In this document: positions 13,905 through 26,256 of the stretch, piece by piece
How positions within the stretch are numbered: position 1 is the first letter of the stretch
Layout: each line of letters opens with the position of its first letter
Origin: Lichenicoccus roseus
GTDB taxonomy: Bacteria; Pseudomonadota; Alphaproteobacteria; Acetobacterales; Acetobacteraceae
NCBI RefSeq assembly: GCF_005844085.1
Contig: NZ_VCDI01000006.1
Location: 62,001-126,000 of the forward strand
Direction of reading: 5' to 3'
DNA: 64,000 nucleotides
Translations under genes and position numbers: made by a program
Notes under the pieces: generated by a model
The model's input: only the letters and a program-made list of their open reading frames with translations
The model's database searches: none
Told to the model about the DNA's origin: nothing

Positions 13905-14474
13905 ATGTCGAGCAGCAAGTCTTCCGACACCGATACCGGCAAGGCGGCCGAGCAGGCTGCTTCGCGATCAAAGGAAAGTTCTTCAGCGGGTATCGCCGCC
14001 TCCAAGGAAGCGGTCTCGTCCGCCATGTCTGCAAGCCGCGAGGCCGCCACCGCCACGCTGGATGCCTCCAAGGATGCCGTCGCGTCGGCCAGCGCCGCCT
14101 ATCGCGATCTTTCCAAGCGCACCCTCGACATGACCGGCAAGGCCGTCTCGTTCAACCAGGGCACCATGGCCGCCTACATCGAGTCTGGCCGCATCATGGT
14201 CGAGGAGACGCAGGCCTTGATCCGCCATGCGATCAGGACCAGCCAGACCGCGACATCCGAGGGCCTCTCCGGCGTACGTACCCTGATGTCCGCCAAGACC
14301 GCCAAGGAGCGGCTCGAATTGCAGATGACGCTTTCGCGCAGTGCCGCGATCTGGGCCATTTCGGAGTCGAGCAATTTCGCGCGCAGCAGCGTCGAGATGT
14401 TCGAGAAAGTTACCGGACCGATGACCGCGCGCGCCTATCTGGCCGCAGAGACGTTCGACAAAGCGATCGCCTGA
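13905..14474 (+). CDS. phaP: Phasin-family protein
   Basis: A 189-residue protein. The first 65 residues are Ala/Ser/Lys-rich (KEAVSSAMSASREAATATLDASKDAVASA). A phasin-like amphipathic helical domain follows: FNQGTMAAYIESGRIMVEETQALIRHAIRTSQ, SAKTAKERLELQMTLSRSAAIWAISESSNFARSSVEMFEKV. Phasins coat PHA granules and control their size. ACAGGAGCGCTC precedes the ATG. A strong hairpin follows the stop. Its place just upstream of the PHA synthase operon supports the granule role. The symbol is given by family and context; the Ala/Ser/Lys-rich N-terminal segment is unusual for PhaP. Confidence 0.78.
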   Translation: MSSSKSSDTDTGKAAEQAASRSKESSSAGIAASKEAVSSAMSASREAATATLDASKDAVASASAAYRDLSKRTLDMTGKAVSFNQGTMAAYIESGRIMVEETQALIRHAIRTSQTATSEGLSGVRTLMSAKTAKERLELQMTLSRSAAIWAISESSNFARSSVEMFEKVTGPMTARAYLAAETFDKAIA

Positions 14475-14826: not shown

Positions 14827-16251
14827 ATGTACAGCGAGCCTCTCATATCGACCAACGGCACCCAGGCCGGCGGCACCAATTCAGGCGCACCCGCCGCCGT
14901 ACAACGCCTGATCGAGAAAGCCCGTTTGGCGCAGGAAGTTTTCGAAACCCTCTCGCAGGCCCACGTCGACGGCATCGTTCGCGAGTTCGCTAAATACGTC
15001 TATACGAATGCCGAGACGCTCGCCGCCATGGCGCACCGGGAGACCGGCCTCGGCGTGTATGAGGACAAGGTACAGAAGAAGCGCGGCAAGGCCCGCACCA
15101 TCTGGAACAGCCTCAAGAACAAGAAGTCCCGCGGCGTGATCGAAGAGGACTTCGAGCGCAACCTCGTGCTGATCGCCAAGCCGATGGGCGTGGTCGGTGC
15201 GGTATGCCCGATCACGAATCCGATCGTGACCCCCATGTGCAACGCCATGTTCGCGCTGAAGGCCGGCAACGCGATCATCTTCGCACCGCATTTCCGGGCG
15301 CAGCATGCGACCCGCCATCTCGTCGCGCAATACGAGCGGATCGTGCACGAGCATGGCGGTCCGGAAAACATGGTGCAGACCATCGAGAGCGGCTCGCGCG
15401 AAACCACGCAGACGCTCATGCGGTCGGTCGATGTCGTGGTCGCCACCGGCGGCGGATCGCTCGTCAAGGCGGCCTATTCGTCCGGCAAGCCCTCATTCGG
15501 CGTCGGTGTCGGCAACGTGCCGGTGGTCATCGATCGTGGTGTCGACCTGCGCGACGCTGCCGAGAAAGTCATCGCCGGTGCCGCCTTCGACAACGGCATC
15601 ATCTGCTCGCACGAGCAGTTCGTGCTGGCACCGCGGGAAAGCTACCAGGCGACCATCGACAGTTTCCTGGCGACCGGCGACGTGTGGTTCACCGACGATG
15701 CGGCGCAGGTCGAGCGACTGCGCGAGGTGATGTTCACCAACGGCCATCTCGAGAAGTCGATCGTCGGCCAGTCGGCGCACTTCATTGGCCGCAAGGCGGG
15801 ATTCGACGTGCCGGCTTCTGCACGCATCATCCTGGTGCCGGCGCGCGGTGCCGGAACCGCCGACCTGCTGGCCAAGGAGAAGCTCTGCCCGGTGGTGGCG
15901 ATCCTGGCCTACGACAGTTTCGAGGATGCCATCGCCAAGGCGCGCGCCAACTTGCTGGTCGAGGGCGCCGGCCACTCGGCGGCGCTGCATTCGCATGACG
16001 AGGCGAACATTCGCGCCATGGGCCTGGGGCTGCCGATCAGCCGCCTGGTGGTGAACCAGACTTCGTCGCTGACCGCCGGCGGTTCGCTCAGCAACGGCTT
16101 CGCACCGACCACGACGCTCGGCTGCGGGTCCTGGGGCGGCAACTCGATCTCGGAAAACCTCGACTACAAGCACCTGATGAATGTCTCGCGCGTCGGCCGG
16201 GTCATTGCCCACCGGCTCATTCCGACCGACGAAGAGATCTGGGCCGCCTGA
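14827..16251 (+). CDS. Acylating (CoA-dependent) aldehyde dehydrogenase
   Basis: A 474-residue aldehyde dehydrogenase of the acylating group that interconverts an aldehyde plus CoA and NAD(P) with an acyl-CoA. It resembles sulfoacetaldehyde dehydrogenase, succinate-semialdehyde dehydrogenase (SucD) and acetaldehyde dehydrogenase. Features: VGAVCPITNPIVTPMCNAM (residues 122-140), VDVVVATGGGSLVKAAYSSGKPSFGVGVGNVPVVID, and catalytic Cys260 in FDNGIICSHEQ. As in acylating members, the base Glu of ordinary ALDHs is not seen. First gene of an operon with alcohol dehydrogenase, PhaE, PhaC and CoA-transferase, so it probably makes or uses the acyl-CoA of a PHA monomer. Confidence 0.85.
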   Translation: MYSEPLISTNGTQAGGTNSGAPAAVQRLIEKARLAQEVFETLSQAHVDGIVREFAKYVYTNAETLAAMAHRETGLGVYEDKVQKKRGKARTIWNSLKNKKSRGVIEEDFERNLVLIAKPMGVVGAVCPITNPIVTPMCNAMFALKAGNAIIFAPHFRAQHATRHLVAQYERIVHEHGGPENMVQTIESGSRETTQTLMRSVDVVVATGGGSLVKAAYSSGKPSFGVGVGNVPVVIDRGVDLRDAAEKVIAGAAFDNGIICSHEQFVLAPRESYQATIDSFLATGDVWFTDDAAQVERLREVMFTNGHLEKSIVGQSAHFIGRKAGFDVPASARIILVPARGAGTADLLAKEKLCPVVAILAYDSFEDAIAKARANLLVEGAGHSAALHSHDEANIRAMGLGLPISRLVVNQTSSLTAGGSLSNGFAPTTTLGCGSWGGNSISENLDYKHLMNVSRVGRVIAHRLIPTDEEIWAA

Positions 16252-16336
16252 TCCGTGGCAAGCCCGGAGTGGCCGCACGACGCGGTCGCCGCCACAGCAA
16301 AGAGGAACGTGCCTTGAAGAGCTGCGAGAACCTGTC

Positions 16337-17467
16337 ATGAAGATCCGGGCAGCCGTGCTCGACACCATGGGCGCCGCACCGCCCTACGCCAGCAGCCTGC
16401 CGCTGCGTATCGTCGAGTTGGAGCTCGATCCGCCCGGCCGCGACGAGGTGCTGGTGAGGATCGCCGCCGCCGGCCTGTGCCATTCCGACCTCTCGGTCAT
16501 CAACGGCGACCGGCCGCGGCCGATGCCGATGGCGCTCGGCCACGAGGCCGCCGGCGTGGTGGAGCAGGTCGGCGCCGACATCACGGATCTGGTGCCGGGC
16601 GATCATGTGGTGATGGTGTTCATGCCCTCCTGCGGCCACTGCATGCCGTGCGCCGAGGGCCGGCCGGCATTGTGCGAGCCGGGTGCGGGGGCGAACGGCG
16701 CCGGAACGCTGCTCGGCGGCGGGCGGCGGCTGCATTGCGATGGCGTCACCATCAACCATCATCTCGGCTGTTCGGCGTTTGCGACCCATGCCGTGGTATC
16801 GCGCCGCTCCGTGGTGAAGCTGCCGCCGGATCTGCCGCTCGACGAGGCGGCGCTGTTCGGTTGCGCCGTGCTGACCGGAGTGGGGGCGGTGGTCAACACC
16901 GCCAGGCTGCAGCCGGGCGAGACCGCCGCGGTGATCGGGCTCGGCGGCGTCGGATTGTCGTCGGTGCTGGGCGCGGTCGCCTCCGGCGCAAGGCAGATCG
17001 TGGCGATCGACCTGTCGGACGAGAAGCTCGAGATCGCGCGCTCGCTCGGCGCCACCGACACCGTGAATGCGCGGGCGCCGGATGCGTCCGAACAGGTGCG
17101 CGCGCTGAGCGGCGGCGGTGTCGACTACGCCTTCGAGATGGCGGGCGCCGCTCGTGCCATGGAGCTTGCGTTCCGCATCACCCGTCGCGGCGGCACCACG
17201 GTGACCGCCGGACTGCCGCCGCCGACGGCGACGCTGGCGCTGCCGCTGGTTCAGCTGGTGGCCGAGGAGCGCACGGTGAAGGGTAGCTATATCGGCGCCT
17301 GCGTGCCGACGCGCGATATCCCGCGCTATGTCGGGCTGTATCGCGCCGGCAAGCTGCCGGTCGACCGGCTGATGAGCGGCAAGCTGCAGCTCGACCAGAT
17401 CAACGAAGGCTTCGACCGGCTGCATGAAGGCCGGGCGGTCCGGCAGATCATCGGGTTTCCGGCATGA
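16337..17467 (+). CDS. Zinc-dependent alcohol dehydrogenase
   Basis: A 376-residue medium-chain alcohol dehydrogenase, class III-like. Catalytic zinc ligands are in GLCHSDLSVINGD (Cys) and LGHEAAGVVEQVG (His-Glu). The structural zinc loop is CGHCMPCAEGRPALC, with four Cys. NAD binding is VIGLGGVGLSSVLGAVASGARQIVAIDLSDEKL. It interconverts an alcohol and an aldehyde. Its stop overlaps the phaE start by 4 bp (ATGA), and it lies 85 bp after the acylating aldehyde dehydrogenase, so alcohol, aldehyde and acyl-CoA could be linked in one pathway. The physiological alcohol is unknown. Confidence 0.9.
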   Translation: MKIRAAVLDTMGAAPPYASSLPLRIVELELDPPGRDEVLVRIAAAGLCHSDLSVINGDRPRPMPMALGHEAAGVVEQVGADITDLVPGDHVVMVFMPSCGHCMPCAEGRPALCEPGAGANGAGTLLGGGRRLHCDGVTINHHLGCSAFATHAVVSRRSVVKLPPDLPLDEAALFGCAVLTGVGAVVNTARLQPGETAAVIGLGGVGLSSVLGAVASGARQIVAIDLSDEKLEIARSLGATDTVNARAPDASEQVRALSGGGVDYAFEMAGAARAMELAFRITRRGGTTVTAGLPPPTATLALPLVQLVAEERTVKGSYIGACVPTRDIPRYVGLYRAGKLPVDRLMSGKLQLDQINEGFDRLHEGRAVRQIIGFPA

Positions 17468-18483
17468 GCAATGCGGCGAAGGATGGCGGGCTGCAGGCCG
17501 GCATCGAGGCGGGCCATGCGATGGCCGAGTTCTGGCATGCCGCCGGCACCGCCGCCCTGCAGGCGCAGCAGGATGCCGCCCGCGCCTTCGCCGGCTTCTT
17601 CACGCTTGGCGCCAGGCCGGGAGCGGAACCGGCCGACGCAGCACCATTGTCCACGCCCGGCGCGCATGCGGGACGGCCCCTGTCCGATCTGATGCAGTCC
17701 GCATCGGCGCTGCACGAGAAGCTGCTCGCCGCCTTCATGGCGGCGGTGAGTTCGGGCAACGCCGGCGTCGAGGCGGGTTGGCGCGCGATGACCGAGCCGA
17801 ATGCGTGGCTGACCGGCGCGATGGGGTTCGGCGCGACCGGCCTGGAGGCGATGCAGGGTCCAGCCGCCTACCTGGCGGAAGGACCCAGGTTCGCCGATCT
17901 GTGGACCGCCGAGCGACAGCAGGCGGCGGTGACGAAGGCATGGCTCGACATGAGCCGTTGCCGGCTGGAGCACGGCGCGATCGTGCTCGCGGCCTGGATC
18001 CGCGCCGGCCAGATCTTTCTGGGCGAAATGACGGCAAAGACGCGGGTCGACCAGCATCCGCCGGCCGGCCGCGCGCTGCTGACGCTGTGGACCGAGACCG
18101 CCAACCGCGAGCTGCTCGAGACGCAGCGGTCCGAGCCATTCCTGCGCACCCAGGCGGCGCTGATGCGCGCCAGTACCGAGCTGAAGCTGGCGCAGCGCGA
18201 GGTGGTGGAGGCCTGGGCCAACCAGTTCGGCCTGCCGACGCGCACCGAGCTGGATGACGTGCATCGCACTGTGACGACCTTGCGTCGGGAACTGCGCCTG
18301 CTGCAGCGGCAGTTGCGCATGCCGACGGCCGGGCAGGCAGACCCGGCGCGTGTGCATCCGGCCTACCCGCCGGAGCCGCGCGAGCCGGTTGCCCCGGTCG
18401 CCACGCGACGCGGCATCAACGGCCACAAGCCCCGTTCGTCTTCGAAGCAGGTACGGCCGGGCCAGGGGAGCCAGCGTCCATGA
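17464..18483 (+). CDS. phaE: Class III PHA synthase subunit PhaE
   Basis: A 339-residue largely helical protein without enzymatic motifs. The C-terminal third matches PhaE: FLRTQAALMRASTELKLAQREVVEAWANQFGLPTRTELDDVHRTVTTLRRELRLLQRQL, where the LPTR-E-D segment and following coiled coil are characteristic. PhaE partners PhaC in class III synthases and is needed for activity. The gene overlaps the alcohol dehydrogenase upstream and phaC downstream by 4 bp each, so the subunits are made together. The N-terminal half (Ala/Gly-rich, phasin-like) is less conserved. The identification rests on the C-terminus plus the position next to phaC. Confidence 0.82.
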   Translation: MSNAAKDGGLQAGIEAGHAMAEFWHAAGTAALQAQQDAARAFAGFFTLGARPGAEPADAAPLSTPGAHAGRPLSDLMQSASALHEKLLAAFMAAVSSGNAGVEAGWRAMTEPNAWLTGAMGFGATGLEAMQGPAAYLAEGPRFADLWTAERQQAAVTKAWLDMSRCRLEHGAIVLAAWIRAGQIFLGEMTAKTRVDQHPPAGRALLTLWTETANRELLETQRSEPFLRTQAALMRASTELKLAQREVVEAWANQFGLPTRTELDDVHRTVTTLRRELRLLQRQLRMPTAGQADPARVHPAYPPEPREPVAPVATRRGINGHKPRSSSKQVRPGQGSQRP

Positions 18484-19751
18484 ACGCCATGGCGCCCGAG
18501 CGCAAGAGTTCGGCGGGATCACCCACGCCGCCGGCGGCCGCTTCCCCCATGGCCGCCGCCATCCCGTTGCCTTGGACCCAGGCCTTGACGGTGACGGCCG
18601 ACATGATGGCGGCCACGGCGCGGATGAACGGCAAGATGCTGTCCGGCGCGTCGCGCCTGGGCCGCCTCCGCGACAGCGATGTCGAGATCGCCACCACCCC
18701 GAAGGACCTGGTGTGGAGCCAGGACAAGGTGACGCTGCACCGCTACCGCCCGCTCGCCGGGCAGAAGGTCCGCATTCCGTTGCTTGTCACCTACGGGCTG
18801 ATCGGGCGCTGGACCATGACCGACCTGCAGGACGACCGCTCGCTGGTGCGCAACCTGCTGCACCTGGGCGTCGATCTGTATGTGGTGGATTGGGGCAATC
18901 CGTCGCGCGCCGACCGCTACCTGACGATGGACGACTATATCTGCGGCTATCTCGACCGGTGCATCGAGGAAGTGGCGCGGCTGTCCGGGGTGGAGAGGGT
19001 CAACCTGTTCGGCCTTTGCGAAGGCGGCGTGTTCACCACCTGCTATGCGGCGCTCGAGCCCGAGCGCGTCAACACCATGACGCTGGCGATCACGCCAATC
19101 GATTTCCATGCCGACACCAGGCAGGACCGGCTCGGCCACGGACTGATCAACGTGTGGACGCGATCGCTGCCGGCCCAGGATGTCGAGCGGCTGATCGAGG
19201 CGCACGGCAACGTACCGGGCCGGTTCTTCGGCGCGATGTTCAACCAGCTGACGCCGATGCGCACCGCGCTCAAATACAATCTCGACATGCTCGACATCGT
19301 CGATGACGACAAGCGGCTGCTCAACTGGCTGCGCATGGAGAAATGGATCGCCGACCGGCCCGACCATCCCGGCGAGGCCGCCAGGCAGTGGCTGATCGAG
19401 CTGTATCAGCAGAACAAGCTGATCCGCAACGAATTGGAACTGGATGGCCGGCGCGTCGAGCTTGGGCGCATCACCATGCCGGTGCTGAACGTGTTCGGCA
19501 GCGACGACCACATCATCCCGGCCGAGACCAGCCGGGCGCTCGGGCGCGAGGTCGGCACCGACGAGTACGAGGAGCTGGCGTTGCCCGGTGGCCATGTCGG
19601 CATCTTCGTCGGCGGCCGGTCGCAGCGACTGTTTGCGCCCGCCCTCGCGGATTTCGTGATGCGACACGACCGAGACCCCGCGCGCCGGGACGGCGAAATG
19701 GACCCCGCGCGCCGGGACGGCGCGACCGAACACGGAGCAATTCCGACATGA
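18480..19751 (+). CDS. phaC: Class III PHA synthase subunit PhaC
   Basis: A 423-residue alpha/beta hydrolase-fold polymerase that joins hydroxyacyl-CoA monomers into polyester. The lipase-like box is NLFGLCEGGVFT, with nucleophile Cys180 in place of Ser. The catalytic Asp is in VFGSDDHIIP (342/343) and the His in GGHVGIFVGGRS (372). LYVVDWGNPSRADRYLTMDDY is a signature of PHA synthases. About 400 residues and a phaE partner place it in class III. Its tail (400-414) carries a duplicated DPARRDG. Start and stop overlap the neighbouring genes by 4 bp, so expression is tightly coupled. Confidence 0.93.
   Translation: MNAMAPERKSSAGSPTPPAAASPMAAAIPLPWTQALTVTADMMAATARMNGKMLSGASRLGRLRDSDVEIATTPKDLVWSQDKVTLHRYRPLAGQKVRIPLLVTYGLIGRWTMTDLQDDRSLVRNLLHLGVDLYVVDWGNPSRADRYLTMDDYICGYLDRCIEEVARLSGVERVNLFGLCEGGVFTTCYAALEPERVNTMTLAITPIDFHADTRQDRLGHGLINVWTRSLPAQDVERLIEAHGNVPGRFFGAMFNQLTPMRTALKYNLDMLDIVDDDKRLLNWLRMEKWIADRPDHPGEAARQWLIELYQQNKLIRNELELDGRRVELGRITMPVLNVFGSDDHIIPAETSRALGREVGTDEYEELALPGGHVGIFVGGRSQRLFAPALADFVMRHDRDPARRDGEMDPARRDGATEHGAIPT
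19677..19723. repeat. Direct repeat at the end of phaC
   Basis: A 20-odd-base segment beginning GACCCCGCGCGCCGGGACGG occurs twice in tandem, in frame, encoding DPARRDG-EM-DPARRDG at the very C-terminus of PhaC, followed by ATEHGAIPT. The duplication adds a charged tail beyond the usual end of the fold; it is probably recent because the copies are identical. Confidence 0.75.
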
Positions 19752-21409
19752 GCAACAAGATCGTCTCCGCGGACGAGGCCGTCGCCGCGATCCGGACCGG
19801 CTGCACCGTCTCGGTTTCCGGCTTCGTGGGGGTCGGCACGCCGGACGAGGTCCTGCTGGCGCTCGAGCGGCGCTACAACGACACCGGTCTCTCCGGCGAG
19901 CTGACGCTGGTGTTCGCGGCCGCCCCTGGCGACGGCAAGGATCGCGGCCTCAACCGCCTGGCGCATCCCGGCCTGGTGCGGCGCGCGGTCGGCGGCCACT
20001 GGTCGCTGGTGCCGAAGCTCGGCCAGTGCGCCATGAACGGCGAGATCGAGGCCTACAACCTGCCGCTGGGTTGCATCGCGCAGCTCTATCGCGACATCGC
20101 CGCGCACCGGCCCGGCCTGCTGTCGAAGGTCGGACTGCGCACCTTCGTCGACCCGCGGCTCGGCGGCGGCAAGATCAACGACCGCACCACCGAGGACCTG
20201 GTCCGGCTGCTGGAAATCGATGGCGAGGAGGTGCTGCTCTACAAGGCCTTCCCGATCGACGTCGCCATCGTACGCGGTACCACCGCGGACACCGCCGGCA
20301 ACATCACCATGGAGCGCGAGGCACTGCAGCTCGACGTGCTGTCGGCGGCGATGGCGGCGCACAATTCGGGCGGCATCGTGATCGCCCAGGTCGAGCGCAT
20401 CGCCCAGGAAGGCTCGCTGGATGCAAGGCGGGTACAGGTCCCCGGCATACTGGTCGACTACGTGGTGCTCGCCGAGCCGAAGAATCACTGCCAGACCTAC
20501 GCGACGGCGCATAACGGCGCCTTCTCCGGCCAGATCCGGGTGCCGCTGGACCGCATCCCGACGCTGCCGTTCGACGAGCGCAAGATCGTCGCCCGCCGGG
20601 TGGCACTCGAGCTGCCGGTTGGCGGCGTGGTCAATCTCGGCATCGGGATGCCGGAGTGCGTCGCCACCGTGGCGGCCGAGGAGAAGATCCTCAGGCACGT
20701 CACCCTGACCGCGGAGCCGGGGGTGATCGGCGGCCTGCCGCAGAGCGGGCTGAACTTCGGCACCGCGCTGAACCCGGCGGCGGTGATCCAGCAGAACCAG
20801 CAGTTCGACTTCTACGACGGCGGCGGGCTGGACCTGGCCTGCCTCGGGATGGCGCAGTCGGACGCCAAGGGCAACGTCAATGTCAGCCGCTTCAACGGGC
20901 GGCTCGCTGGCGCCGGCGGCTTCATCAACATCAGCCAGAGCGCGCACAAGCTGGTGTTCGCCGGCACCTTCACGGCCGGCGGCCTGCTGGTGCATATCGA
21001 GGATGGCCGCCTGCACATCGTGCGCGAGGGCAGGACGCACAAGTTCATCGAGGCGGTCGAGCAGATCACCTTCAGCGGCGACTATGCCGGCGAGAAGGGC
21101 CAGCAGGTGCTGTATGTCACCGAGCGCTGCGTGTTCGCCCGCACGCATGACGGTGTCGAGCTCGTCGAGGTCGCGCCCGGGATCGACATCGAGCGGGACA
21201 TCCTGGCGCAGATGGGGTTCCGGCCGATCGTGGACCGGCCACGGATGATGGATGCCCGACTGTTCCGGCCCGAAGCGATGGGCCTGCATCTCGCACTACA
21301 CGAACTGAGCGTTCCGGAGCGGGCCAGTCATGCGGGCGAGCGGCAGCAGCGTCCGCAAAGAGGCGTGCCCGCGGTTCTGGAACCGCAATACGCTGCCGCA
21401 GGAGACTGA
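19748..21409 (+). CDS. Fused acyl-CoA:carboxylate CoA-transferase
   Basis: A 553-residue single-chain CoA-transferase of the propionate/acetate CoA-transferase (COG4670) type, with alpha and beta halves fused. The N-terminal half has GCTVSVSGFVGVGTPDEVL and DPRLGGGKIND. The C-terminal half has VVNLGIGMPECVATVAAEE (about 296-312), catalytic Glu323 in LTAEPGVIGGLPQSG, and GGGLDLACLGMAQSDAKGNVNVSRF. It moves CoA between carboxylic acids through a glutamyl-CoA thioester. It overlaps phaC by 4 bp, so it probably activates the hydroxy acid that PhaC polymerises. About 40 residues at the C-terminus look unconserved. Confidence 0.87.
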   Translation: MSNKIVSADEAVAAIRTGCTVSVSGFVGVGTPDEVLLALERRYNDTGLSGELTLVFAAAPGDGKDRGLNRLAHPGLVRRAVGGHWSLVPKLGQCAMNGEIEAYNLPLGCIAQLYRDIAAHRPGLLSKVGLRTFVDPRLGGGKINDRTTEDLVRLLEIDGEEVLLYKAFPIDVAIVRGTTADTAGNITMEREALQLDVLSAAMAAHNSGGIVIAQVERIAQEGSLDARRVQVPGILVDYVVLAEPKNHCQTYATAHNGAFSGQIRVPLDRIPTLPFDERKIVARRVALELPVGGVVNLGIGMPECVATVAAEEKILRHVTLTAEPGVIGGLPQSGLNFGTALNPAAVIQQNQQFDFYDGGGLDLACLGMAQSDAKGNVNVSRFNGRLAGAGGFINISQSAHKLVFAGTFTAGGLLVHIEDGRLHIVREGRTHKFIEAVEQITFSGDYAGEKGQQVLYVTERCVFARTHDGVELVEVAPGIDIERDILAQMGFRPIVDRPRMMDARLFRPEAMGLHLALHELSVPERASHAGERQQRPQRGVPAVLEPQYAAAGD

Positions 21410-21588
21410 CACCGGCCCAGGCTTAACCCGATCTTGTGGATGAACGGAGTACAAGGTCCGTGCGTTCAGTGGATCCCGGCTCCGAGGCTGTTGACGCACC
21501 AATGCCGCAGCTGGTCCCCTCGGGGCCGCCAGTCTCCGGGGGGTCGGGCGTGATCGGGTCCGGAGGATGGGTTCACACCCTTGGCAAG

Positions 21589-22524
21589 ATGCTGCGAAAA
21601 ACCGTGACGACGACAGGCCCATCATTTGAATTCGATCTGGCGGTCGACCCGATCGAGCAGTTCCGCACTCCAGACCGCACCGGCTCCTATCTCGGCGTCT
21701 CGAAACATGGGTTCCACCGGGTCGCCTACGTCGAGTGGGGCGATCCGCAATCAGAGCGTGTTGCGATCTGCCTGCACGGGCTCTCCCGCCAGGGGCGCGA
21801 CTTCGACCTGATCGCTGCCGAGCTGGCGCGCCGGGGCTGGCGTGTGATCTGTCCGGACCTGGTCGGCCGCGGCCGCAGCGACTGGCTGCGCGAGCCGACC
21901 GAATATACGCTGCCGCAATATGTTTCCGACCTCGCCGCCCTGGTAGCCCGCCTCGATGTGCCGCGCATCGACTGGATCGGCACCTCGCTCGGCGGCATCG
22001 TCGGCATGCTGATGGCCGGGCAACGGCAATCTCCGGTAAGCCGGCTGGTGGTGAACGATATCGGCCCGTTCGTAACCTGGCAGGTGCTGCAGCGCCTCGC
22101 CGAAGCGGTGCGCGCGGCTCCGCTCACCATGCCGGACCTCGCATCGGCGACAAGTTTCGTCCGGACCTCCCTGTCCGGCTTCGGCCCGCTTTCCGACGAG
22201 AAGTGGGAGCACATGGCGCGGCACGGCTTCGTCCAGAACAATGTAGGCGCATGGAGGAAGCTTGCCGATTCCGACATCGCAGGTCCGCTGCGCTCCAGCC
22301 TGCTGTTCAACCTGAGCATCTGGAACTACTGGGACCAGATCGAGTGTCCGACTCTGGTGCTACGCGGCACCGAGTCGGACGTCCTGCCGGCGGCCATCGC
22401 CACCGAGATGACGCAGCGCGGCCCGAAGGCGGATCTCGTCGAGTTCCGCGGCTGCGGCCACGCGCCGGCGCTGATGGACGCCGACCAGATCGCCACGGTG
22501 GCGGACTGGCTCGGCCAGGATTAG
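21589..22524 (+). CDS. Alpha/beta hydrolase
   Basis: A 311-residue alpha/beta-fold hydrolase. The oxyanion motif is ICLHGLSRQGRDFD, the nucleophile Ser is in IDWIGTSLGGIVGMLMAG, the acid lies near LVLRGTESDVLP, and the His is in FRGCGHAPALMD. It probably hydrolyses an ester or a PHA oligomer, but the substrate is not evident. The start is uncertain: an ATG at 21,589 matches the expected N-terminus, while the frame is open back to 21,436. It follows the PHA operon in the same direction after a gap of about 180 bp. Convergent with the dehydrogenase gene downstream. Confidence 0.82.
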   Translation: MLRKTVTTTGPSFEFDLAVDPIEQFRTPDRTGSYLGVSKHGFHRVAYVEWGDPQSERVAICLHGLSRQGRDFDLIAAELARRGWRVICPDLVGRGRSDWLREPTEYTLPQYVSDLAALVARLDVPRIDWIGTSLGGIVGMLMAGQRQSPVSRLVVNDIGPFVTWQVLQRLAEAVRAAPLTMPDLASATSFVRTSLSGFGPLSDEKWEHMARHGFVQNNVGAWRKLADSDIAGPLRSSLLFNLSIWNYWDQIECPTLVLRGTESDVLPAAIATEMTQRGPKADLVEFRGCGHAPALMDADQIATVADWLGQD

Positions 22525-22596: not shown

Positions 22597-24012
22597 TCAG
22601 AGCCGGTCGGACCAGACGGTCTGGGCGTTGAGGAATTCGCGCAGGCCGAAGTGCGACAGTTCCCGGCCATAGCCGCTCTTCTTGATGCCGCCGATCGGCA
22701 CCCGCGGATCGGAGATCGCGTAGCCGTTGACGAACACGCCCCCGGTATTCATCCGCCGCGCCAGCCGGCGGCCGATGCTGCGATCGCCGGTCCAGAGGCT
22801 GCCGCTCAGCCCGAACTCGCTCTGGTTCGCAAGCTGCACCGCGTGATCGGCATCGCTGGCAATCGTGATCGCCGCCACCGGCCCGAAGGTCTCGGCATCG
22901 AAGGCCTGCATGCCAGGCAGCACCTGGTCGAGCACCGTCGGCGCATAGAAGCAGCCCGGCCCCTCGACCGCATGGCCGCCGGTCAACAGCCTGGCGCCGG
23001 CGGCGAGGCTCGCCTCGACCTGGCCGTGCAGTTCGTCTCGCAGGTCTGCCCGTGCCATCGGACCGACCTCGGTGTTCTCGTCGAGCGGATTGCCGACCCG
23101 TAGCGCCTTCACGGCCCCGACAAAACGCTCGGTGAAGCGCTCGGCCACCGGCGCCTCGATGATGAAGCGCTTGGCGGCGATGCAGACCTGGCCGCAATTC
23201 TGGAATCGCGCGGTGACGGCGGCGCGTATCGCGGCGTCGAGGTCGGCATCGGCGAGCACGATGAACGGGTCGGAGCCGCCCAGCTCCAGCACCGACTTCT
23301 TCAGCGCGGCGGCCGCCTGCGAGGCGATCTGCCGGCCCGCCGCAACACCACCGGTCAGCGTGACCGCGGCGATGCGGTCATCGGCGATCACTACCGGGCT
23401 CTGGCTGCGGGTCAGGTTGGCGACGGTGAACACCCCGTCCGGCAGTCCGGCCTCCTGCCAGGCCTGTTCCAGCAGCAGCGCCGAGCCGACCACGTTGCCG
23501 GCCGGCTTGAGGAAGAAGCCGTTGCCGCCCATCATGATCGGCACCGCGCCCCGCATGGCCTGCCAGTACGGGAAATTCCACGGCATCACCGCATACACGG
23601 TACCCAGCGGCAGGAACGAGACGGTCGCGCGGTCGCCCTCGACACTGGTGCTCTCATCCTCCAGCAGCCGCGGACCGTTCTCGCCATACCAGTCGCAGAG
23701 CGCTGCGCATTTCTCGATCTCGGCCCGCGCCTGGATGATCGGCTTGCCCATCTCGCGGGTCGCCATCAAGGCCATCTCGTTCTGGCGCCGGCGCAGCACC
23801 GACGCCATGCGGTGCAGCAGGGCGGCGCGTCTGGTGGCGGCGGTGTCGCGCCAGCGCTCGAACCCGATCTGCGCCCGCTCGAGCAGGCTGCGCAGCTCGC
23901 TGTCGGTCAGGAACGGATGGCGGGCGAATACGACGCCGTCGGTGGGATCGGTCGACACCGCGCCGGGCAGATTGCCAGGATGCCGGTCGGTGGAAGTCTG
24001 GAAGGCTGACAT
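22597..24012 (-). CDS. NAD(P)-dependent succinate-semialdehyde-type dehydrogenase
   Basis: A 471-residue non-acylating aldehyde dehydrogenase. PWNFPYWQAMRGAVP is the cofactor-binding start, VTLTGGVAAGRQIASQAA and SVLELGGSDPFIVLADADLD give the Gly-rich loop and base Glu, and FQNCGQVCIAAKRFII has the nucleophile Cys. FDAETFGPVAAI and GYGRELSHFGLREFLNAQTV are typical of the short succinate-semialdehyde dehydrogenase (Sad/GabD) group. The likely reaction is succinate semialdehyde to succinate. The ATG at 24,012 (MSAFQTS) is preferred to one ten codons upstream. It converges on the alpha/beta hydrolase and may help dispose of C4 intermediates of PHA metabolism. Confidence 0.87.
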   Translation of the reverse strand: MSAFQTSTDRHPGNLPGAVSTDPTDGVVFARHPFLTDSELRSLLERAQIGFERWRDTAATRRAALLHRMASVLRRRQNEMALMATREMGKPIIQARAEIEKCAALCDWYGENGPRLLEDESTSVEGDRATVSFLPLGTVYAVMPWNFPYWQAMRGAVPIMMGGNGFFLKPAGNVVGSALLLEQAWQEAGLPDGVFTVANLTRSQSPVVIADDRIAAVTLTGGVAAGRQIASQAAAALKKSVLELGGSDPFIVLADADLDAAIRAAVTARFQNCGQVCIAAKRFIIEAPVAERFTERFVGAVKALRVGNPLDENTEVGPMARADLRDELHGQVEASLAAGARLLTGGHAVEGPGCFYAPTVLDQVLPGMQAFDAETFGPVAAITIASDADHAVQLANQSEFGLSGSLWTGDRSIGRRLARRMNTGGVFVNGYAISDPRVPIGGIKKSGYGRELSHFGLREFLNAQTVWSDRL

Positions 24013-24154
24013 GGCTTGAACATCCTCGTGCACCGGCTGCAATGCGGCGCTTGCACAGGCTGGATGTATGCGCCTCGACAGGAGCCCACCAGATAAGCTC
24101 TCAACCTATGACCTGCGGTCCCCGTCGGGGAGACCCAGGCCCGCAGGGGGACGC

Positions 24155-24961
24155 TCAGGGGGGCGCGCGCTCGGATGGGCGCGGGATGTAGGTAACCAGC
24201 GAGAGATCGTGCCGGCTTTCCGGGACCATCGAGACGTAGGTCAGGTCGACCGTCCCATGCACCGGATGATCGATGCGCTTCACGCCTTCATCGAAATGCC
24301 GCACGTCGTGGTCCGGCCACCACAGCCGGAACTCCGTGCTGCTGGCGATCAGCTCGTCTGCCAGCGTGCGGAACGGCGTCTTGTCGGCCGCCTGCGCCTG
24401 GGCGGCGCGGAAGGTCGCCAGCATGCCGCGTGCCACGACTTCCCAATCGACGATCAGGCGCCGGTATGGCGGATGCAGGAACAGCAGCCGCAGGGTGTTG
24501 CGCTCGTGCGGCTCCAGGACGCCGTAGTCGGTGAACAGGTCGGCGATCGCGCTGTTCCAGGCCAGGATATCCAGCCTGGTGTTGCGGATGTAGGCCGGCA
24601 CCGGATCGAGCGCTCGCAGCAGCAGCAGCAGCCCGTTGCTGAGGCTGTCGTCGGGCGGCGCTTCCGGCGGCCTGCGCTCGGACAGCGCGAACAGGTGGAC
24701 GCGCTCGGTGTAATCCAGCCGAAGCGCCTCGGCGACGCGATCCAGGGTTTCTGGGGAGGCACGGATCTCGCGGCCCTGCTCGAGCCAGGTGTACCAGCTC
24801 ACGCTGACGCCGGCGAGTTGTGCCACCTCCTCGCGGCGCAAGCCCGGCGTACGGCGGCGTCCGACCGCGAAACCGGCAGCGGCGGGGTCCAGCCGCGCAC
24901 GCCGGTCGACCAGGAACGCGCCCAGGATCTTGCGCTGCTCGTCGGAAGGCGCCTTCTGCAC
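24155..24961 (-). CDS. XRE-type regulator with MmyB-like ligand domain
   Basis: A 268-residue transcriptional regulator. The helix-turn-helix covers residues 30-95: GRRRTPGLRREEVAQLAGVSVSWYTWLEQGREIRASPETLDRVAEALRL. The C-terminal part has the MmyB-like PAS-fold ligand pocket: PAYIRNTRLDILAWNSAIADLFTDYG, RNTLRLLFLHPPYRRLIVDWEVVARGMLATFR, FRLWWPDHDVRHFDEGVKRIDHPVHGTVDLTY. Such proteins bind a fatty-acid-like ligand and usually control adjacent reductase or dehydrogenase genes. It lies between the dehydrogenase (same strand, downstream) and the esterase (divergent), either of which may be its target. Confidence 0.87.
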   Translation of the reverse strand: MQKAPSDEQRKILGAFLVDRRARLDPAAAGFAVGRRRTPGLRREEVAQLAGVSVSWYTWLEQGREIRASPETLDRVAEALRLDYTERVHLFALSERRPPEAPPDDSLSNGLLLLLRALDPVPAYIRNTRLDILAWNSAIADLFTDYGVLEPHERNTLRLLFLHPPYRRLIVDWEVVARGMLATFRAAQAQAADKTPFRTLADELIASSTEFRLWWPDHDVRHFDEGVKRIDHPVHGTVDLTYVSMVPESRHDLSLVTYIPRPSERAPP

Positions 24962-25089: not shown

Positions 25090-26256
25090 ATGACCGACGG
25101 CACCACCCGACGCCCTCGCGCACCCCGCGACTGGCACGCGACAGCCCAGGCCGCCTGGCAGCGCGTCGCCGGCAGCAATATCGCCAAGGCCCCTGCCGGC
25201 GCCGGGCCCTCATCGGCCTGGCTCGACTTCGTTCCGGAGGGAGTACGCAGCCTGCTGCGCACCCAGCCCGGTGCGGACCAGCCCGGCGGCTGGAGCGTCC
25301 CGCCCGCCTCCTGGTCCCAGCCGCTCCACCGCACTCCCCCGGAGCCCAACGACGCGCCGCATACACCCCGGCCCGATCCGTCCGGAGCCGGCGGCCAGTT
25401 CCTGTACGGCACCTTCACCAGCGAAGCCGGCACTCGCCCGTACCGGCTCTATGTCCCGGGCAGCTATGCCGGCCAGCGGGTTCCACTGATCGTCATGCTG
25501 CACGGCTGCATGCAGTCGCCGGAGGATTTCGCCGCCGGCACCGGCATGAATGCGGCCGCGGAGGAACATGGCTTCCTGGTCGTCTATCCCGGCCAGCCGG
25601 CGGCGGCGCATGCGCAACGCTGCTGGAAATGGTTCAGCGCGCAGGACCAGCGGCGCGACCACGGCGAGCCGGCAATCATCGCCGGCATTACCCGCCTGGT
25701 CATGGCGGAGTATGAAGTCGATCCGGCACGCGTGCACGTCGCCGGGCTATCGGCCGGCGGTGCCGAGGCGGCGATCCTCGGTCAGGCCTATCCGGATCTC
25801 TACGCGTCCATCGGGGTGCATTCCGGACTCGCCTGCGGCGCCGCACAGGACCTGCCGTCGGCCCTGCTGGCCATGCAGCGAGGCAATCCGGAGCTGCGGC
25901 ACCGTCGCCATTCGGCACGCGCCCGCCCGATGCCGGCCATCGTCTTCCACGGCGACCGCGACAGCGTCGTCAGCCCGCGCAACGCCGAGGATGTGGTGGC
26001 GCAGCTGGCGCAGGGGGCCGGCCTGCGCATCTCGGCGGAGGACGGCCAGGACCCCGGCAGCTATCCGTATCGCCGGACCCTCTACCGGGATGCGACCGGC
26101 CGGCCGGTCATCGAGCAGTGGAGCCTGCTGGGAGCCGGCCACGCCTGGTCCGGCGGCAGCGAGGCGGGATCCTATACCGACCGGCGCGGCCCCGACGCCA
26201 CCCGTGAGATGGTGCGCTTCTTCGCCGAGCATCCGCATCCGGCACCTCCATCATGA
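25090..26256 (+). CDS. PHB-depolymerase-family esterase
   Basis: A 388-residue esterase of the PHB depolymerase / LpqC family. After a poorly conserved 110-residue N-terminus come LYVPGSYAGQRVPLIVMLHGCMQSPEDFAAGTGMNAAAEEHGFLVVYP, the nucleophile Ser in VHVAGLSAGGAEAAILGQAYPDLYA, the Asp in AIVFHGDRDSVV, and the His in LLGAGHAWSGGSEAGSYTDRRGPDA. This order is standard for intracellular or periplasmic PHB depolymerase-like proteins. No signal peptide is visible, so an intracellular role on PHA is plausible given the nearby PHA genes; related proteins also act on short-chain esters. Confidence 0.87.
   Translation: MTDGTTRRPRAPRDWHATAQAAWQRVAGSNIAKAPAGAGPSSAWLDFVPEGVRSLLRTQPGADQPGGWSVPPASWSQPLHRTPPEPNDAPHTPRPDPSGAGGQFLYGTFTSEAGTRPYRLYVPGSYAGQRVPLIVMLHGCMQSPEDFAAGTGMNAAAEEHGFLVVYPGQPAAAHAQRCWKWFSAQDQRRDHGEPAIIAGITRLVMAEYEVDPARVHVAGLSAGGAEAAILGQAYPDLYASIGVHSGLACGAAQDLPSALLAMQRGNPELRHRRHSARARPMPAIVFHGDRDSVVSPRNAEDVVAQLAQGAGLRISAEDGQDPGSYPYRRTLYRDATGRPVIEQWSLLGAGHAWSGGSEAGSYTDRRGPDATREMVRFFAEHPHPAPPS

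Follow-up and report, generated by a model that had tools for sequence, protein, structure and literature searches.

An operon predicted to drain the citric acid cycle into a 4-hydroxybutyrate polyester in Lichenicoccus roseus

The operon at positions 14827 to 21409 of the window analysed here, which is a stretch of 64,000 nucleotides from Lichenicoccus roseus (assembly GCF_005844085.1, contig NZ_VCDI01000006.1, positions 62,001 to 126,000), codes for two oxidoreductases, the two subunits of a polyhydroxyalkanoate (PHA) synthase and a CoA-transferase. This raises the question of which hydroxy acid is polymerised and from which metabolite it is made. Comparison with related loci suggests that the operon quite probably constitutes a self-contained pathway draining a citric-acid-cycle intermediate into a polyester of 4-hydroxybutyrate (4HB). 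The first-pass annotation suggested that oxidation of an alcohol or aldehyde may feed an unusual monomer such as 4HB. Good support for this monomer comes from the SucD type of the first enzyme, from its exchange in related operons for an enzyme resembling 2-oxoglutarate decarboxylase, and from the tested succinic semialdehyde (SSA) reductase GhbD of a homologous operon, whereas the oxidative direction suggested there is probably the opposite of the real one.

In the proposed pathway, the SucD-type enzyme would convert succinyl-CoA to SSA, which the zinc dehydrogenase would reduce to 4HB; the CoA-transferase would then put CoA on 4HB, probably from acetyl-CoA, and PhaE and PhaC would polymerise 4HB-CoA on phasin-coated granules. 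A hydrolase and an adjoining SSA dehydrogenase may return the stored polymer to succinate. The substrates of the window proteins, the direction of the reactions and the polymer are inferred from sequence.

The operon and its first enzyme

Five genes read from the open frames follow one another on the + strand: those for an acylating aldehyde dehydrogenase (ALDH; 14827..16251), a zinc alcohol dehydrogenase (ADH; 16337..17467), PhaE (17464..18483), PhaC (18480..19751) and a fused CoA-transferase (19748..21409). The coordinates agree with the co-directional row and the overlapping last three junctions described in the first-pass annotation, with 4-bp overlaps at 17464-17467, 18480-18483 and 19748-19751, and a gap of 85 bp separates the first gene from the second. 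An AAGGAG motif is located six bases 5' of the ATG at 14827. A scan for sigma-70 promoters gave no match, and terminator matches were no better than those of shuffled sequences.

The product of the first gene is, on its sequence, an enzyme of the SucD (succinyl-CoA reductase) type, and not of the SauS or acetaldehyde type. Its nearest solved protein is Clostridium kluyveri SucD (CkSucD, PDB 8cei) with 494 bits, followed by AdhE with 315 bits, and it is 55% identical to the clostridial relative L060 versus 37-38% to two SauS-like plasmid proteins. With the SauS model NF047625 it scored 401 bits and missed the cut-off of 600 bits, similar to a clostridial relative (411 bits) and the homologue in locus L077 (419 bits); the two SauS-like plasmid proteins reached 509 and 511 bits, also below the cut-off. 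A SauS (sulfoacetaldehyde) reading is rejected on model score and identity, and a grouping with this unrelated pathway, which would have spoken against the first-pass interpretation, was not borne out.

Residues Cys242, Lys70 and Ser243 of CkSucD correspond to C260, K88 and S261 of the window protein. According to the excerpts of PMC10249356, Lys70 and Ser243 hold the distal carboxylate of the CoA ester. Among 89 aligned rows, a number that takes in the window and six duplicate rows, the Cys and the Lys are present in 89 each and the Ser in 87. Both the Lys70 and the Ser243 position are occupied by Ala in AdhE (13he) and in 3k9d, and an acetaldehyde- or butyryl-type reading of the first gene is rejected on these residues; in an Enterococcus relative adjoining a butyrate kinase, the two positions are Met and Ala. 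As a side observation, the primer named K70R in the excerpts of PMC10249356 seems to alter Lys63 when counted on the 8cei chain, so that the numbering of the paper may be inconsistent.

The other four operon products would form and polymerise 4HB-CoA. The ADH, a zinc enzyme of the MDR type (Pfam ADH_N and ADH_zinc_N), is the candidate SSA reductase, with an identity of 85% to that of L163, 72% to those of L091 and L092 and 66% to that of L077. PhaE matches Pfam PF09712 with 65.3 bits (cut-off 25.7). Placed by motif, the catalytic triad of PhaC is Cys180-Asp343-His372, with the elbow GLCEGG. By sequence, PhaC and PhaE are a divergent subgroup of class III PHA synthases. A Glu adjoins the catalytic Cys (GxCEGG) in 12 of 14 PhaCs from operons of this type, with Gln in L093 and L097, and Gln is found in all 28 other class III PhaCs, defined as those without a CoA-transferase match within their 4-kb loci. 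This Glu (window residues 178-183 region) is a possible mark of the substrate. The CoA-transferase, a fused family-I enzyme of the YdiF/Pct-like kind and the presumed 4HB CoA-transferase, matches YdiF (PDB 2ahu) with 445 bits across residues 5-515 as a fused alpha-beta chain; its catalytic Glu, placed by motif, would be E323 in TAEPGVIGG.

Related operons and the source of succinic semialdehyde

The loci examined comprise eight plasmid stretches from 80 listed matches, the locus of Sinorhizobium meliloti HM006 (L184) and genome stretches chosen by PhaC, CoA-transferase and ALDH searches, and thus are a non-random sample. The order ADH-PhaE-PhaC-CoA-transferase was found again in other alphaproteobacteria and in one gammaproteobacterium, so that the arrangement appears to be more than chance; of the conservation on which the first-pass interpretation had been made to depend, the recurrence in relatives is upheld, but the distribution is patchy. 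PhaC and an alcohol dehydrogenase occur together in 16 loci (the window, L077, L090, L093-L097, L117, L118, L163, L165-L167, L169 and L184), and all 16 carry an adjoining gene or remnant readable as an SSA source. In 14 loci this source is a thiamine-diphosphate (ThDP) enzyme, its gene being fragmented in four of them (L094, L096, L097 and L184). The other two loci have a SucD-type enzyme, whose gene is the first of the operon in the window and the last in L077. Three loci (window, L163 and L077) have a zinc-type reductase and 13 one of the iron type (Fe-ADH). Genera with a ThDP enzyme in the operon include Acidisphaera, Methylobacterium, Bosea and Sinorhizobium; in Methylobacterium, this form is present in M. 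trifolii DSM 23632 and M. hispanicum DSM 16372. On two Rhizobium plasmids (L094 and L097), two ThDP-FeADH units lie about 9-12 kb apart, one with PhaE and PhaC, the other with the CoA-transferase.

The nearest kin of the window operon is that of L163, an Acidisphaera metagenome-assembled genome (MAG), where the ThDP enzyme is at the first position. Besides the ADH, the two loci share PhaE (44% identity), PhaC (67%), the CoA-transferase (79%) and the hydrolase (58%). A SucD-like gene is present on a separate contig in the L163 genome and in three Methylobacterium genomes that have the order ThDP-FeADH-PhaE-PhaC-CoA-transferase; a donor for the swap therefore exists in such genomes.

In the trees, the window PhaC is sister to that of L163 (support 100/99), as is the CoA-transferase (96/97). 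A supported branch (100/99) has all 28 other class III PhaCs on the same side, and L116 is placed in between without support. In the ALDH tree, the window protein clusters with three proteins from Methylobacterium (99/96) and the L077 protein with that of another gammaproteobacterium (100/99), and the supported branches require two changes of the label 'in a PHA operon'. By the simplest count, these separate clades correspond to two recruitments, and SucD thus seems to have entered PHA operons of this type twice. The ALDH tree leaves out L171-L176, which repeat rows in the tree, and also L182, a non-duplicate homologue from Caballeronia; the CoA-transferase tree leaves out L129 (a repeat of L168), L096, L170 and L184, and the PhaC tree L095 and L184.

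The ThDP enzyme of the related operons is tentatively assigned as a 2-oxoglutarate decarboxylase. The excerpts of PMC10418658 give a size of 550 amino acids for the cyanobacterial decarboxylase, like that of the ThDP protein, and there Lys386 and Lys471 of MaKGD were placed on 2-oxoglutarate by docking. Of the MaKGD residues positioned on substrate and cofactor, both Lys, together with A408, M410 and D435, are kept in eight of eight ThDP proteins, and D462 and Y465 in seven; the residues were located by counting from the GDGG motif, which makes the placements of E50, Q254 and Y531 unreliable. In 1ozf, a catabolic acetolactate synthase, positions 386 and 471 are occupied by His and Gln. If the ThDP enzyme is a decarboxylase, it would work one way, toward the aldehyde, and the window dehydrogenases would most likely be reductases acting on a citric-acid-cycle intermediate.

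A ThDP gene lies alongside in 14 of 80 SucD-like loci and an Fe-ADH gene in 22, at a distance of 2.5-3.3 kb in three of the latter (L067, L072 and L079). These neighbours all point to SSA, which is also the fitting common intermediate of SucD, 2-oxoglutarate decarboxylase, 4HB dehydrogenase and a CoA-transferase with PHA synthase. In the Bosea operon (L090), additional genes code for aconitase, an isocitrate/isopropylmalate-family dehydrogenase, acetyl-CoA synthetase (Acs), pyrophosphatase, adenylate kinase and a citrate symporter; these may lead to 2-oxoglutarate and recycle acetate, pyrophosphate and AMP, as an acetyl-CoA-using CoA-transferase would require.

Apart from the PHA operons, the ThDP enzyme was found directly 5' of a SucD-like gene in SAR86 MAGs (L022, L024, L025, L028, L031, L032, L034 and L039-L041), in L026 (labelled Flavobacteriaceae), and in L061 and L066. 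Such pairs would let marine bacteria bypass 2-oxoglutarate dehydrogenase, going from 2-oxoglutarate via SSA to succinyl-CoA, if they consist of a decarboxylase and an oxidative SucD. The pairs of ThDP enzyme and ALDH in Leisingera and Sphingobium resemble the cyanobacterial pair, but those ALDHs reach no cut-off for succinate-semialdehyde dehydrogenase (SSADH), and no ALDH gene adjoins the ThDP copies on R. johnstonii pRL12 and on an Agrobacterium plasmid.

Genome context and competing explanations

In the L. roseus genome (100% complete, 1.26% contamination), the window PhaC is the only match to the PhaC_N family. Counting this genome, such PhaCs were matched in one of 60 relatives (E 1e-40), six of 385 genomes of the class (E 1e-70) and 36 of 398 of the phylum (E 1e-90), where the class and phylum searches scored at most four candidates per genome, so that the counts may miss some. 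No PRK08322 ThDP enzyme was found above the cut-off in the genome (best 344 of 509 bits); a 2-oxoglutarate dehydrogenase, able to supply succinyl-CoA, is present.

A gene for a phasin, a PHA granule coat protein, precedes the operon on the + strand (13905..14474; Pfam Phasin_2 44.7 bits, cut-off 24.9), its end 352 bp from the first operon gene. On the other side, the frame of an alpha/beta-hydrolase (21436..22524, + strand; Pfam Abhydrolase_6/1), a possible intracellular depolymerase or lactonase, begins 26 bp 3' of the CoA-transferase gene, with an uncertain start codon. Besides that of L163, homologues were found in L090 (47% identity), L077 and L117 (43% each), L118 (42%), L092 (41%) and L169 (40%), making seven related loci, with none detected in the remaining ones examined. 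The protein P0007 matches general hydrolases and, weakly, a depolymerase of poly-3-hydroxybutyrate (PHB). Further genes code for an SSADH-like enzyme (22597..24042, - strand; NF010575 637 bits, below the cut-off of 855), a predicted MmyB-like transcription regulator (24155..24961, - strand; Pfam MLTR_LBD 154 bits) and a PHB-depolymerase-family esterase (about 25090..26256, + strand; NF050058 320.6 bits, cut-off 150). The phasin, semialdehyde dehydrogenase-like and PHB-depolymerase-like genes of the first-pass annotation are all present in the window.

A number of observations weigh against the 4HB pathway or parts of it. The Lys and Ser of the first enzyme are present in SauS-like proteins too, and therefore indicate an acidic acyl group without being specific to succinyl; the branch of the window SucD is long (0.44, versus 0.03-0.09 for the five nearest rows), so that its specificity may have shifted. 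These five rows and L037 have no neighbouring match to the ThDP, ADH, PhaC or CoA-transferase probes; in all, 41 of the 80 SucD-like loci have none, the closest relatives of the window SucD among them. The ThDP protein falls in the NCBIfam PRK08322 'acetolactate synthase large subunit' with 820 bits (cut-off 509), a family to which the cyanobacterial 2-oxoglutarate decarboxylase probably also belongs. MaKGD residues Val382, Ala384, His385 and Leu467 are replaced in eight of eight ThDP proteins. Among PDB chains the closest is 13bb ('acetolactate synthase'), where position 386 is Met and position 471 Lys. In the model scan, no specific ADH model names the zinc enzyme, and PhaC and PhaE score below their TIGRFAM cut-offs (TIGR01836 356.6 versus 365.3 bits; TIGR01834 64.6 versus 154.95 bits). 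The operon is rare, a window-type PhaC being found in none of the 59 other relatives searched at E 1e-40, and it is not always intact: five further genomes of the class carry this PhaC, and three of them (L116, a 9.8-kb contig, L119, where a weak zinc-ADH match lies about 7 kb off, and L120) have no CoA-transferase match, L091 and L092 have the ThDP enzyme, zinc ADH and CoA-transferase without a nearby PhaC, L095 has its PhaC in two pieces and no nearby CoA-transferase, L164 retains PhaC remnants only, and L168 and L170 contain the CoA-transferase alone (L170 ending at the contig end). Finally, in the excerpts of PMC12636752 the monomer of the S. meliloti polymer is not established.

Among other explanations, the one that survives best, though unlikely, is that external 4HB, or butyrolactone or 1,4-butanediol, is assimilated, partly activated and stored and partly oxidised, by the zinc ADH to SSA and by the SucD-type enzyme onward to succinyl-CoA. 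The dehydrogenases are reversible, an SSADH-like gene adjoins the window operon, and the rhizobial pha genes adjoin att catabolic genes and correlate with 4HB use in Rhizobium leguminosarum; according to the excerpts of PMC4313370, this correlation concerns pRL100103-105 across 72 isolates, and the ADH shares 51% identity with AttL. However, the ThDP enzyme of the related operons, if a decarboxylase, would be unable to serve SSA oxidation, and in the window this oxidation is already covered by the SSADH-like gene.

Polymerisation of a different hydroxy acid, such as 3-hydroxypropionate made from malonyl-CoA through malonic semialdehyde, or an acid that is longer or sulfonated, is very improbable. 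PCT-type CoA-transferases are broad, and the acidic-acyl pocket residues alone do not discriminate between succinyl and other acidic substrates, sulfo- compounds included. The missed SauS model, the exchange with the ThDP enzyme, the co-occurrence of the two enzymes at other loci and the biochemistry of GhbD, as given in the excerpts of PMC12636752, point instead to SSA.

Regarding the standard phaCAB route to 3-hydroxybutyrate (3HB), the absence of phaA and phaB from the window stated in the first-pass annotation holds, as no thiolase matches there (four strong matches lie elsewhere in the genome) and for two short-chain dehydrogenases encoded around 10.1-11.7 kb the scores, 134 and 70 bits, are far below the PhaB cut-off of 302, which no protein of the genome exceeds (best 249 bits). 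Ordinary 3HB storage with the broad oxidoreductases as hitchhikers is the least probable explanation of all, since the plasmid loci L090-L097 have no annotated phaA or phaB (these loci are incompletely annotated, and the search did not extend to the unannotated genome loci) and the operon PhaCs stand apart from the 28 others with the Glu for Gln exchange, even though class III synthases commonly make PHB and the genome holds thiolases and many PhaB-like reductases below the cut-off.

Known systems and the meaning of the operon

For the 4HB pathway proposed here, one of the closest known systems is that of S. meliloti HM006, as described in the excerpts of a 2025 preprint (PMC12636752). The pSymA operon (pha-1/pha-2) has the order ghbD-phaE-phaC2-ghbT-acs, with two annotated pseudogenes 5' of ghbD, and purified GhbD, an iron ADH, reduces SSA to 4HB using NADH or NADPH. 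SSA and 4HB increase in nodules of M. sativa, but not of M. truncatula; granules were lost after a 223-kb deletion covering both loci, and the Nile-Red signal was lower in ghbD knockouts. The authors proposed a cycle of poly-4HB (P4HB) in nodules with plant gamma-aminobutyric acid (GABA) as the source of SSA, and attributed symbiotic collapse to 4HB formation rather than polymer synthesis. The window operon shares homologous PhaE, PhaC and CoA-transferase in identical order and the same proposed polymerisation of 4HB-CoA; it differs in that a zinc ADH replaces the iron enzyme GhbD and a SucD-type enzyme would make SSA within the operon, in place of plant GABA. At positions 4473-6055 of L184, a ThDP enzyme is encoded 5' of ghbD in two frames and is thus interrupted; the annotated pseudogenes of HM006 are most likely this interrupted SSA source.

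In C. kluyveri, 4HbD is an iron ADH and OrfZ/Cat2 another kind of CoA-transferase than that of the window. The sucD-4hbD-orfZ pathway of this organism shares with the window a homologous SucD and the steps from succinyl-CoA via SSA and 4HB to 4HB-CoA (excerpts of PMC7147479), but it is fermentative and, unlike the window operon, without a PHA synthase. The same source describes engineered P4HB production in E. coli with sucD, 4hbD, orfZ and pha genes, in Synechococcus with 2-oxoglutarate decarboxylase and in Halomonas with both; these routes use the same reactions and both alternative SSA sources, but were assembled by humans from several organisms, whereas the window carries a natural set in one operon. 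The cyanobacterial bypass by 2-oxoglutarate decarboxylase and SSADH (excerpts of PMC10418658) has the reaction presumed for the ThDP gene of the relatives, with succinate as the product, not a polymer. Operons of this kind are known from rhizobia; not found in print were an SSA source encoded within the operon in either of two interchangeable forms, a zinc-type reductase, and occurrence outside the rhizobia. Among the papers listed, as judged from titles and abstract openings, no natural SucD- or decarboxylase-led PHA operon was seen, and PMC12636752 was the one paper among them on a natural 4HB operon.

We lean slightly towards the view that non-rhizobial bacteria make P4HB de novo from the citric acid cycle, and not from acetoacetyl-CoA, via a modular operon with exchanged entry enzyme and reductase, and that in L. 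roseus it is the only storage polyester. P4HB is the PHA with approval by the Food and Drug Administration for medical use, and according to excerpts of two reviews (PMC7147479, PMC8659255) wild-type strains need 4HB precursors, or few microbes form 4HB from unrelated carbon. If the pathway is true, the operon would provide genes for a natural de novo 4HB polymer, a pathway left open in these reviews. Its enzymes would have evolved together and be ready to use, with a PhaC of a subgroup distinct from the remaining class III synthases. For the rhizobia, the interrupted gene 5' of ghbD in HM006 resembles a lost SSA source and suggests a missing piece of the P4HB cycle; its loss would agree with the proposal of the authors that SSA has another origin there, for instance plant GABA. 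Since the L. roseus genome has a single PhaC, the monomer can be read directly from the polymer of the organism. 2-Oxoglutarate is a signal of nitrogen hunger, and if the pathway holds, storage could be tied to the level of this metabolite.

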